This document shows, piece by piece, positions 8,244-10,896 of a DNA stretch of 32,866 bases. Source of the stretch: an uncultured Thomasclavelia sp. (GTDB lineage: Bacteria; Bacillota_I; Bacilli_A; Erysipelotrichales; Coprobacillaceae); assembly GCF_944324745.1 (NCBI RefSeq), contig NZ_CALUXO010000090.1:1-32866 (forward strand). Direction: 5' to 3'. Position 1 is the first letter of the stretch. Every line of letters begins with the position of its first letter. The translations under genes were made by a program, and so were the position numbers. Under the pieces are notes generated by a model, which made no database searches, was not told where the DNA came from, and saw nothing but the letters and a program-made list of their open reading frames with translations.

Positions 8244-8270
8244 AAGCAGCTGGTAACAGCTGCTTTATTC
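8243..8270. terminator. Bidirectional terminator between AKR and antiporter genes
   Basis: Perfect 10-bp stem AAAGCAGCTG (8243-8252) / CAGCTGCTTT (8257-8266), loop GTAA, T-rich flank on plus (TTTATTC). The minus flank is TTTTAAAAATG. The stops of both convergent genes touch the hairpin. Confidence 0.85.
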
Positions 8271-9461
8271 TTGGGTCAATAATTTTCGATAACTTAAATC
8301 AATACCAATAGCACCAAGGGGTGCTGTAATTAAAATTCCTAAAACGGCTACTGATAAAACAATCGGACCACAGCTTAATCCCATTGCCAGGGGAACAGAA
8401 CCGATAGCAGCTTGAACCGTTGCTTTAGGAAGATATGCAATGATACAAAATAATCGTTCCTTGAAATTTAAGTTTGTTTTAAATAGACAGATCGATACTC
8501 CAATTGAACGGAAACATAATGCTAAAAAGATCATCAAAATGGCTGCAATTCCAGCGTCCATAGTATAACGAATATCAACGGCTGCTCCAACTAAAACAAA
8601 GAGTAAAACTTCAGCCCCGATCCACAGCTTACCAAATTTTTCAGATAAACGATTAGTGACATTTTTAGGACTTTTGATTTTAATCATACAAGCCATTGCT
8701 ACTACTGCTAATAAACCCGAAATGGAAACAATATCTGATAACCAAGTTTCAATTGCCATTAATAAAAATGATAAACCAAGAATGATAATAATTTTAGTAC
8801 TGTTACGAATATAATGATTATATTTATAAGTCATTTCAAAGATAATAGTAACGATATAACCGACAACAGCTCCTAAAATAACCCCAAGAATAATAGAAAC
8901 TGGAATGTTAATAAAATCAGTTATATTAGCACTGCCACCTTGGGCCATTGATGAAAAAGTTGAAAATAAAACAATAACAAAAATATCATCACAAGAAGCT
9001 CCAGCTAAGATAAATTGAGGAATACTTTTGTTAGTTCCATATTTACCATCCATCAGCTGAACCATTCTAGGAACCACAACCGCCGGTGATACAGCCGCTA
9101 AAACAGAACCCATGACAGCAGCTTCAATTCGTGTAATATGAAGAATTGATGGTGCTAGTAATAAAAACCCAAGAATTTCAAAACTGGCAGGAACAAAAGA
9201 CATCATAATGGCTGGACGGCCTACTTTTTTTAAATCTGATAAATTTAATGACAGCCCAGCTTTTAATAAAATAATAATTAAAGCCATTTGTCTTAATTCC
9301 GATGAAATTGATAAAATAGAATCATCAAGTAAGTTTAGAGCATAAGGACCAATTAAAATCCCAGTAATCAATAATCCAATCAACCGTGGTAACTTAAATA
9401 ATTGAAAAATCCCTCCAATCAATAAACCAATGATAAAAATAAACGCTAGTGATGTTAACAT
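8265..9461 (-). CDS. Cation/proton antiporter (CPA-type, NhaP/KefB-like) under fluoride riboswitch control
   Basis: 398 residues from ATG 9461; the longer open frame to 9503 lacks an RBS, whereas AGGAGG lies 6 nt before 9461. About 12 hydrophobic segments span the whole length. The CPA fold signatures are LLITGILIGPYAL (about 27-39), the discontinuous-helix region LAAVSPAVVVPRM (about 120-132), and the paired acidic site GASCDDIF (about 155-162), where two Asp residues are typical of electrogenic family members. There is no cytosolic TrkA domain. It probably exchanges Na+ (or another cation) for H+. It is a single gene whose 100-nt leader folds as a fluoride riboswitch with an intrinsic terminator, so it should be induced by fluoride. 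Antiporters are a known fluoride-riboswitch gene class besides crcB and CLC-F. Confidence 0.88.
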   Translation of the reverse strand: MLTSLAFIFIIGLLIGGIFQLFKLPRLIGLLITGILIGPYALNLLDDSILSISSELRQMALIIILLKAGLSLNLSDLKKVGRPAIMMSFVPASFEILGFLLLAPSILHITRIEAAVMGSVLAAVSPAVVVPRMVQLMDGKYGTNKSIPQFILAGASCDDIFVIVLFSTFSSMAQGGSANITDFINIPVSIILGVILGAVVGYIVTIIFEMTYKYNHYIRNSTKIIIILGLSFLLMAIETWLSDIVSISGLLAVVAMACMIKIKSPKNVTNRLSEKFGKLWIGAEVLLFVLVGAAVDIRYTMDAGIAAILMIFLALCFRSIGVSICLFKTNLNFKERLFCIIAYLPKATVQAAIGSVPLAMGLSCGPIVLSVAVLGILITAPLGAIGIDLSYRKLLTQE

Positions 9462-9475
9462 ATTAATCCTCCTCA

Positions 9476-9531
9476 TAAAAATTAAAAAGCTGACGATTTC
9501 CACGATAAAAAATCGTAGAAGTCATCAGCTT
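9476..9531 (-). terminator. Riboswitch expression-platform terminator
   Basis: On the minus strand, AAGCTGATGACTTCTACGAT pairs with ATCGTGGAAATCGTCAGCTT (20-bp stem with one mismatch and two G-U pairs) over a 5-nt T loop, followed by TTTTTAATTTTT. Its 5' arm is the same sequence that forms the 3' half of the fluoride aptamer, so ligand-bound aptamer and terminator are mutually exclusive. This predicts transcription ON with fluoride. Confidence 0.85.
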
Positions 9532-9580
9532 ATTACAGCGGTTTAGGTTTTTACCAAGGGAGAACTTCATTCCCTGATAG
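9514..9580 (-). promoter_or_regulatory. Fluoride riboswitch aptamer (crcB motif)
   Basis: Reading the minus strand from 9580, the hallmarks of the crcB RNA appear in order: a P1 hairpin GGGA-AUGAAGUUC-UCCC; the stretch AAACCGCU; P3 closed by GCU/AGC; then AGCUGAUGACUUCUAC. The hairpin-loop GAAGU can pair with ACUUC in the 3' segment, which is the defining pseudoknot. A 12-nt spacer containing a GGU-AAAA-ACC mini-hairpin separates P1 from AAACCGC, slightly longer than common examples. The predicted transcription start is near 9576, right at the aptamer start. Confidence 0.85.
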
Positions 9581-9581
9581 T

Positions 9582-9610
9582 ATTATAAAAAAATTAGTAA
9601 TGAATGTAAA
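9582..9610 (-). promoter_or_regulatory. Promoter of the riboswitch-antiporter transcript
   Basis: On the minus strand TTACAT (9610-9605) and TATAAT (9587-9582) are separated by 17 bp. Initiation about 7 nt later falls at the first bases of the aptamer. Confidence 0.65.
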
Positions 9611-9651: not shown

Positions 9652-9674
9652 TAGATAAAGTGGAGGGTGATATA

Positions 9675-10184
9675 ATGTATATTCGTCAAGCAACAGTTGC
9701 TGACTATGAATTAATTTACGATTTGGTTAAAGAAGCTTTTAAAACGGCCAAAGAAACTGATGGAACTGAGCAGGATTTTGTCGTAAGTTTACGAAACAGT
9801 GAAAATTATTTACCCGAATTAGAATTTGTCGCTGTTCAAGACGATCAGTTAATTGGTCATATTATACTAACTAAACAAGTAGTTCAATCTTCTGAAGGAT
9901 CTTATCAGGCATTATTACTAGCACCGCTTTGTGTTGCCAAGGGTTATCGTAATCAAGGAATTGGTGGTCAGTTAATTGAATATGCTAAAAAAGCTGCTTT
10001 AAAAGCTGGTTATCAGGCAATCTTTTTGCTTGGTGATTATAATTATTATGGCCGCTTTGGATTTCAGGCAGTTAGCCATTATCAAATAAAAAATATTACA
10101 AATGTCTTGGATGAATATGTTTTAGGCTGTGAACTAGTAGATGATGCTTTATTAGATATTCATGGCACGATAAAATTGGTATAA
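9675..10184 (+). CDS. GNAT family N-acetyltransferase (YhbS-like)
   Basis: 169 residues from ATG 9675, chosen because GGAGGGTGAT precedes it; an ATG at 9600 in the same frame overlaps the promoter and has no RBS. The N-terminus YIRQATVADYELIYDLV is the typical GNAT opening. The acetyl-CoA pyrophosphate loop is YRNQGIGGQLI (about 95-105). The C-terminal GDYNYYGRFGF is characteristic of the COG3153/YhbS subgroup. It is soluble and transfers acetyl from acetyl-CoA to an unknown amine. It is monocistronic and ends at a long hairpin shared with the convergent PepSY gene. Confidence 0.88.
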   Translation: MYIRQATVADYELIYDLVKEAFKTAKETDGTEQDFVVSLRNSENYLPELEFVAVQDDQLIGHIILTKQVVQSSEGSYQALLLAPLCVAKGYRNQGIGGQLIEYAKKAALKAGYQAIFLLGDYNYYGRFGFQAVSHYQIKNITNVLDEYVLGCELVDDALLDIHGTIKLV

Positions 10185-10219: not shown

Positions 10220-10792
10220 TTAATCATGATAATCTTGTTCATATTTTAGAATTTCACCAGTGCTGGCATTAATATCGATTTCGTATTCGTAATGACCATT
10301 TTTGATTTCAATTTCATAAACCAGTATATGATCATCATGATCTAATTCGCTTTTAACTAAATAACCACCACCAGTTTTATTTAAAGCAATGTTTTGGGCT
10401 TCTTCAGCACTGATAATATTATTAGTAGTTTGATTTGTCGCTGGATCAGTGTTTTGCGTAGTGTTAGTTGTAGTGTCATTATTATCAATAGGGGTTACGT
10501 TGCTTTCAGTAGTAGTATCACTGACATAGTTTTTATCTCTTTCTTTTTTTAAGATTGTACCGCTATTAGCATCAACTTCAATCTCATATTTTTCACTATC
10601 AGTAACGATAGTAAAATCATAGTAAGTAATACCATCATCATAATCTTGTTTGGCTTTTAAAACTTTTTTTCCTTCAACTTCAGCTACTGCAATATCTTGG
10701 GCTTCTTCTAGCGTCAAAGCATTGACTTTACTGTTGCTGCCACAACCGGCTAGTAAGATTGTTAATAGGGCTAATATTATAATTTTTTTCAT
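10220..10792 (-). CDS. Lipoprotein with two PepSY domains
   Basis: 190 residues from the second Met (10792), because AAAGGAG lies 9 nt upstream; an ATG at 10819 would place the RBS inside the gene. The lipobox is LAGC (about residues 14-17). Two tandem PepSY modules follow: LEEAQDIAVAEVEGKKVLKA...YEIEVDANSGTILK (about 27-83) and AEEAQNIALNKTGGGYLV...YEIDINASTGEILKYEQD (about 130-188). They are joined by a Thr/Asn-rich low-complexity linker of about 40 residues. PepSY domains are thought to be inhibitory or chaperone-like modules acting on extracellular proteases or matrix (family knowledge). The protein is expected on the outer membrane face. The specific partner is unknown. Confidence 0.88.
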   Translation of the reverse strand: MKKIIILALLTILLAGCGSNSKVNALTLEEAQDIAVAEVEGKKVLKAKQDYDDGITYYDFTIVTDSEKYEIEVDANSGTILKKERDKNYVSDTTTESNVTPIDNNDTTTNTTQNTDPATNQTTNNIISAEEAQNIALNKTGGGYLVKSELDHDDHILVYEIEIKNGHYEYEIDINASTGEILKYEQDYHD

Positions 10793-10896
10793 GTTTTTCA
10801 ACTCCTTTTCTTTTTTCATCTATATCTTAACCTATTTTTTGAATTAAAACCTTAAAGTAACATAATAATTAAATAAGAAAATTCTCATAATTATTC

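Follow-up and report, generated by a model that had tools for sequence, protein, structure and literature searches.

A predicted ON-type fluoride riboswitch ahead of a lone NHA/SLC9B-type antiporter gene in a Thomasclavelia genome

The window (the whole stretch of DNA that was analysed, 32,866 nucleotides from an uncultured Thomasclavelia sp., a gut member of the Erysipelotrichia) carries on its minus strand an antiporter gene preceded by a leader with a candidate fluoride riboswitch. We list the features in the order in which they would be transcribed.

9582..9610, minus strand: predicted sigma-70-type promoter, TTTACA (9610-9605), 17 nt, TATAAT (9587-9582), from its match to the consensus and its spacing in relatives
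9509..9583, minus strand: predicted fluoride riboswitch aptamer (RF01734, 51 bits) with P1, the pseudoknot GAAGU/ACUUC and AAACCGCU...AGCUGAUGACUUCUAC
9545..9557, minus strand: insert between P1 and AAACCGC, a small predicted hairpin GGU-AAAA-ACC that is absent from the RF01734 consensus
9487..9531, minus strand: predicted intrinsic terminator hairpin (folding), its 5′ arm made of the 3′ strand of the second aptamer helix and the pseudoknot strand
9476..9486, minus strand: U-rich tract 3′ of the terminator (sequence)
9466..9475, minus strand: putative ribosome binding site GAGGAGG, 3′ of the terminator and outside the hairpin (sequence)
8265..9461, minus strand: predicted NHA/SLC9B-type Na+/H+ antiporter of 398 amino acids (PF00999, similarity to NHA2, ion-site residues)

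The ATG of the antiporter is at 9461 (minus strand), after the GAGGAGG. Divergent from the riboswitch promoter is a GNAT acetyltransferase gene (about 9672-10184, plus strand), which adjoins a gene for a lipoprotein-like protein with two PepSY domains (10220-10819, minus strand).

A search of the whole window with covariance models matched RF01734 at 9509-9583 (minus strand) over the full model (positions 1-64), with 51 bits and an E-value of 1.7e-11; the gathering score of the model is 34 bits, and matches at or above 34 were accepted. This is the sole Rfam match above the gathering score in the window, and the element is the only RF01734 occurrence in the 2.76-Mb assembly. The window has a single copy of the core AGCTGATGACTTCTAC, against 0.00 expected by chance. 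The window aptamer has the pseudoknot GAAGU/ACUUC, formed by the P1 loop with the 3′ strand. Its pairing is complete in 52 of 75 relatives, and 21 more have one U-U.

The TTTACA-17-TATAAT promoter (11 of 12 matches) is the best of the region in a promoter scan. TATAAT ends 6 nt ahead of the first base of P1, an A at 9575, so transcription should begin at the aptamer, with 9575 as the expected start. Relatives, too, most often have a spacing of 6 nt (31 of 74 leaders; 5-8 nt in 42 of 74). Folding places a terminator at 9531-9487 (minus strand) with a 19-bp stem, one 1x1 mismatch and a 5-nt loop, at -26 kcal/mol (z = -10.1, with none of the shuffles as good). The scan for promoter and terminator patterns misses this hairpin because of the stem mismatch, and folding detects it. 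The aptamer strand AAGCUGAUGACUUCUACGAU is the 5′ arm of the 19-bp terminator, with U residues after it; as predicted structures, terminator and aptamer are mutually exclusive. Overlap of the terminator with the 3′ strand of the aptamer is common to 75 of 77 leaders.

Some leaders hold additional elements. Those of two antiporter loci (L050 and L053) have a first hairpin and then a second terminator-like one. At L082 (2904-2988) and L088 (2895-2983) the stretch that separates the riboswitch terminator from the antiporter start contains a GA-cis RNA (RF02987, 79 and 97 bits), so that one leader combines two structured RNAs; we found no trace of the GA-cis RNA in the literature searched. Tandem fluoride riboswitches, on the same strand and about 30-45 nt apart, occur at G259:C11:68817-68968 and G353:C42:372-540.

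The small hairpin in the insert after P1 is conserved. The RF01734 model handles this spacer on the P1 side as an insert, and where it could be read, in 74 leaders, it is about 11-14 nt long, mostly 12-13 nt. A stem of at least 3 bp is possible in 44 of 45 distinct inserts, against 19.3 expected and a maximum of 26 in 500 shuffles. The stems differ and yet stay paired (CGG/CCG, TGG/CCA, TTGG/CCAA, CAGC/GCTG, TAGC/GCTA), and GNRA-type loops are frequent. Long aptamers (matches of 71-92 nt) mostly stand before close relatives of the gene, with at least 50% identity; before distant relatives and in most Fluc or CLC-F leaders the aptamers are about 59-67 nt long.

These results agree for the most part with a first-pass annotation made from the letters of the DNA. 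It had proposed a fluoride riboswitch on the minus strand of 9476-9610 with the hallmarks of the crcB motif, among them P1 and the pseudoknot, and the significant full-length match with its pseudoknot bears this out. The promoter is placed as its predicted start at the first aptamer base requires, and the pairing of nearly all inserts outside the RF01734 consensus upholds its remark on a P1 spacer of about 12 nt, longer than common, with a mini-hairpin of its own. It had also described an overlapping 20-bp terminator; the overlap stands, gives an ON switch and recurs in relatives, but the stem is 19 bp with one mismatch.

We predict the following mechanism. Without fluoride, the aptamer's 3′ strand would pair within the terminator of the new RNA, and transcription would end ahead of the gene. 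With fluoride and Mg2+, the pseudoknotted aptamer would keep this strand, RNA polymerase would read through and the gene would be on. Fluoride riboswitches are documented to work in this way, with the fluoride-stabilised aptamer blocking a terminator (PMC2864571, PMC13273304). We are close to certain, judging from the sequence, that the locus holds a transcriptional ON-type fluoride riboswitch with the antiporter gene as its single target.

The gene product matches the PF00999 Na_H_Exchanger profile across the transmembrane domain (145.6 bits, residues 12-383). It scores well below the cut-offs of two narrower models, NF003716 for the NCBIfam potassium/proton antiporter (53.6 bits, cut-off 355) and TIGR00932 for CPA2 (47 bits, cut-off 238.3). 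Among proteins of solved structure, the nearest to it are human and bison NHA2 (best 1.1e-36, human), followed by NhaP1 at 1.7e-6. All 88 orthologues compared have E95, D158, D159, R318, K346 and T348, which align to E215, D278, D279, R432, K460 and T462 of human NHA2 (the bison numbering is one lower). In bison NHA2, which is electroneutral, these residues make up the ion site, a salt bridge specific to NHA2 and the TM12 break (PMC8850199). The DD motif, the E-R salt-bridge pair and the K and T at the TM12 break are thus all present. The position of R318 is K in 10 of 13 other CPA proteins of the same order, and most of the listed positions differ in them. Beside the salt bridge, the NHA2 tryptophan W456 (bison) is replaced by Y343 in all orthologues; W456 is a feature of mammalian NHA2 and is not established as defining the wider NHA/SLC9B type. 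The AlphaFold model is weak (pLDDT 65.6) and its top five Foldseek matches are NHA2, which supports the family assignment only. By alignment and model, the product is an NHA/SLC9B-type antiporter in which the NHA2 ion site is preserved residue by residue, and it is most likely a Na+/H+ exchanger. One genome has two copies of the antiporter on the same contig, at G269:C1:522711-523901 (62% identical to the query) and 1091385-1092572 (54%), with a riboswitch before the first only.

The riboswitch accompanies the gene in many lineages. An RF01734 match that exceeds the cut-off lies upstream of the gene at 76 of 80 orthologue loci (66-82% identity), at one of them (L051) about 730 nt from the gene start, and the linked loci span Erysipelotrichia, Lachnospiraceae, Oscillospiraceae, Ruminococcus, Peptoniphilaceae and others. 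Two of the four misses (L083, L084) have riboswitch fragments, and the other two (L069, L099) gave no RF01734 element even at a permissive threshold. Within the order of the window, the gene is preceded by the riboswitch in all 8 genomes with an orthologue of at least 51% identity, including one (G014) with 32.1 bits, slightly below the cut-off of 34. We also surveyed an even draw of 293 Clostridia genomes, counting as family members proteins of 39% identity or more, fragments included. There are 52 members in 48 of the 293 genomes, and a riboswitch lies 39-161 nt upstream of 41 of the 52. Those 41 are drawn from the 76 above-cut-off riboswitches in the survey; Fluc follows 12 and CLC-F 5 (G288, G292, G207, G225 and G139, the last a CLC assigned by position and similarity alone). 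The antiporter family is the commonest riboswitch target in the sampled Clostridia. No conserved downstream or co-transcribed partner of the antiporter is widely common to the relatives. The association of riboswitch and antiporter is near-obligate.

Just two fluoride exporters are recognised in bacteria (PMC11139923). Fluc (PF02537) was not found in the window's assembly, which is 95.6% complete, nor was a recognisable CLC-F; the sole CLC has the chloride motifs GSGIP, GREGP and GIFFP. The filter motifs of CLC-F are GMxLI or GNNLI, GREGV or GREGT, and GEVTP (PMC5100911). Among the 293 Clostridia, Fluc occurs in 62 genomes overall and in 0 of the 48 with the antiporter, where about 10 would be expected (Fisher p 3e-6, uncorrected for kinship). 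Of 50 genomes that hold close orthologues, 2 have Fluc; three of the 50 are apparently identical to order members counted above. In the genus of the window, three species have Fluc without the antiporter, two have antiporter and riboswitch without Fluc, and four have neither. A clear CLC-F occurs in 1 of the 48 antiporter genomes of Clostridia (G337), and one of the 50 close-orthologue genomes (G033) has an altered CLC-F copy (GRAGV). The riboswitch precedes Fluc or CLC-F in genomes that lack the antiporter. The exclusion of Fluc may simply follow lineage.

Other CLCs are frequent. About half of the 50 close-orthologue genomes carry a CLC of the GTN/GREGA/GEIVP type. Scores with the CLC-F of G018 as query do not separate CLC-F from the GREGA type, so the filter motifs were read. 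The CLCs of L127-L150 and several of L158-L172 have GTNxV or GNDLI, GREGA, and GEIVP or GEVIP, and are neither of the chloride type nor of the known CLC-F set. In G337, the only survey genome found with both genes, the CLC-F gene lies next to the riboswitch-led antiporter gene and diverges from it (L162, G337:C19:80-2239). G018, from the same family as the window, has no antiporter and a riboswitch-led CLC-F whose frame is broken into two ORFs (L013, G018:C13:175289-176537).

The genome searches confirm the first-pass annotation in naming an antiporter, and not Fluc (crcB) or CLC-F, as the only controlled gene; they add that the assembly yielded no such exporter and that the lone target recurs in relatives. 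Its implication that such a target is rare does not hold. Na+/H+ antiporters are the second commonest gene class behind fluoride riboswitches, next after the exporters, in a 2024 review (PMC11139923), and the present family leads in the sampled Clostridia. It suggested a response based on ion or pH homeostasis. Since the protein retains the NHA2 ion-site residues, this reading has the best support, and we make it our own inference from the protein sequence.

Our best explanation overall, to which we give a probability of about 0.65, is that an ON-type riboswitch controls a single NHA/SLC9B-type Na+/H+ exchanger that acts through pH. HF passes through membranes, and the amount trapped as F- scales with the pH difference. 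The exchanger would swap Na+ for H+, probably 1:1, and reset the pH difference across the membrane. If H+ moves in and Na+ out, the trap would be weaker and fluoride would leave as HF without a dedicated exporter; if H+ moves out, the acid load brought by HF would be repaired. The direction of exchange is not readable from the sequence, and the first option fits better because no exporter stands alongside. Fluoride-adapted yeast tolerate a lower cytoplasmic pH, and a review connects pH homeostasis with the Na+/H+ antiporters that follow fluoride riboswitches (PMC11139923). Action through Na+/H+ exchange and cytoplasmic pH, taken by itself, is probable. Against the overall explanation stand the near-absence of known exporters alongside, which would be unexpected if the antiporter only assisted, and the replacement of W456 by Y343.

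The near-absence of known exporters from antiporter genomes leaves room for direct export, in which the NHA-type protein itself moves fluoride, whether as HF or by F-/H+ or F-/Na+ transport, and would add a third exporter type that replaces Fluc and CLC-F. This is conceivable because the antiporter stands where exporters otherwise stand: the 48 antiporter genomes and 62 Fluc genomes of the survey do not overlap, Fluc and CLC-F are nearly missing from the genomes of close orthologues, the genus of the window divides in the same way, and the same riboswitch heads Fluc or CLC-F where the antiporter is absent. There is also a precedent, as CLC-F proteins were formerly annotated as chloride transporters (PMC7266159). 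However, the protein keeps all residues of the NHA2 cation site, whereas the filter of CLC-F departs from that of the chloride CLCs (PMC5100911). The GREGA-type CLC in about half of the 50 genomes could export fluoride, and lineage alone may account for the Fluc exclusion. We therefore regard direct export as unlikely. On a broader reading, many gut Firmicutes would rely chiefly on the riboswitch-linked NHA-type protein for fluoride resistance in place of Fluc and CLC-F, with the protein either forming a third exporter class or dissipating the pH gradient to let fluoride out as HF; this is tentative and somewhat doubtful, though better placed than direct export alone.

A more improbable alternative makes the antiporter an accessory, with fluoride removed by another exporter that is unrecognised or constitutive (a GREGA-type or canonical CLC). 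Many genomes do hold CLCs outside the known CLC-F set, riboswitch control covers only about 15% of Fluc and about 30% of CLC-F (PMC11139923), and in C. difficile a CLC and an NhaP-type antiporter lie behind one fluoride riboswitch (PMC11477304). Against it, the window's assembly has one CLC only, with chloride motifs, many other antiporter genomes gave no match of the GREGA or CLC-F type, and no conserved partner gene follows the antiporter. We consider it highly improbable that the aptamer match arose by chance or marks a decayed, non-functional element, since it scores 51 bits, its terminator is intact, the promoter is in phase with it and the insert hairpin is conserved, although 4 of the 80 orthologue loci have fragments only (2) or no riboswitch (2).

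The exchanger may be the main inducible answer to fluoride in these bacteria. Its family nearly always follows a fluoride riboswitch, has the transcript to itself and occurs in genomes that mostly lack both exporters, which makes it a direct candidate for a further resistance route, and the old remark on antiporters after fluoride riboswitches becomes testable with a single gene. The basic pairing of riboswitch and antiporter is already known. The NHA-type assignment, the near-obligate linkage, the exclusion of Fluc and the extra hairpin were not found in the open literature searched, although primary papers may mention them earlier; nor did the open papers searched join the fluoride riboswitch and the antiporter with CPA or cation proton antiporter.

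The system resembles several known ones in part. Like the fluoride riboswitch class (crcB motif, RF01734), it has the full-length match, the pseudoknot and a terminator that overlaps the 3′ strand of the aptamer, as described for that class (PMC2864571, PMC13273304). It differs from the RF01734 consensus in the conserved small hairpin inserted after P1, which is usual before close antiporter relatives and mostly missing before distant ones and before Fluc or CLC-F. The protein is about 30% identical to NHA2/SLC9B2 (PDB 7b4l, 7p1i) over its full length and has the DD motif and the E, R, K and T ion-site residues in common with it; unlike NHA2, it is bacterial, lacks the long N-terminal extension, has Y for the tryptophan and is predicted to be controlled by fluoride. 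In C. difficile CD0656-CD0657 (CLC and NhaP-type antiporter, PMC11477304) a fluoride riboswitch likewise has an antiporter in its transcript, but CD0657 follows a CLC whereas the antiporter here is alone, and the comparison does not imply orthology with CD0657. The riboswitch-linked Na+/H+ antiporters of the 2024 review (PMC11139923) are the same kind of gene behind the same riboswitch; here the gene is assigned to the NHA/SLC9B type, stands alone in its transcript and is linked near-obligately to the riboswitch, in genomes without Fluc.
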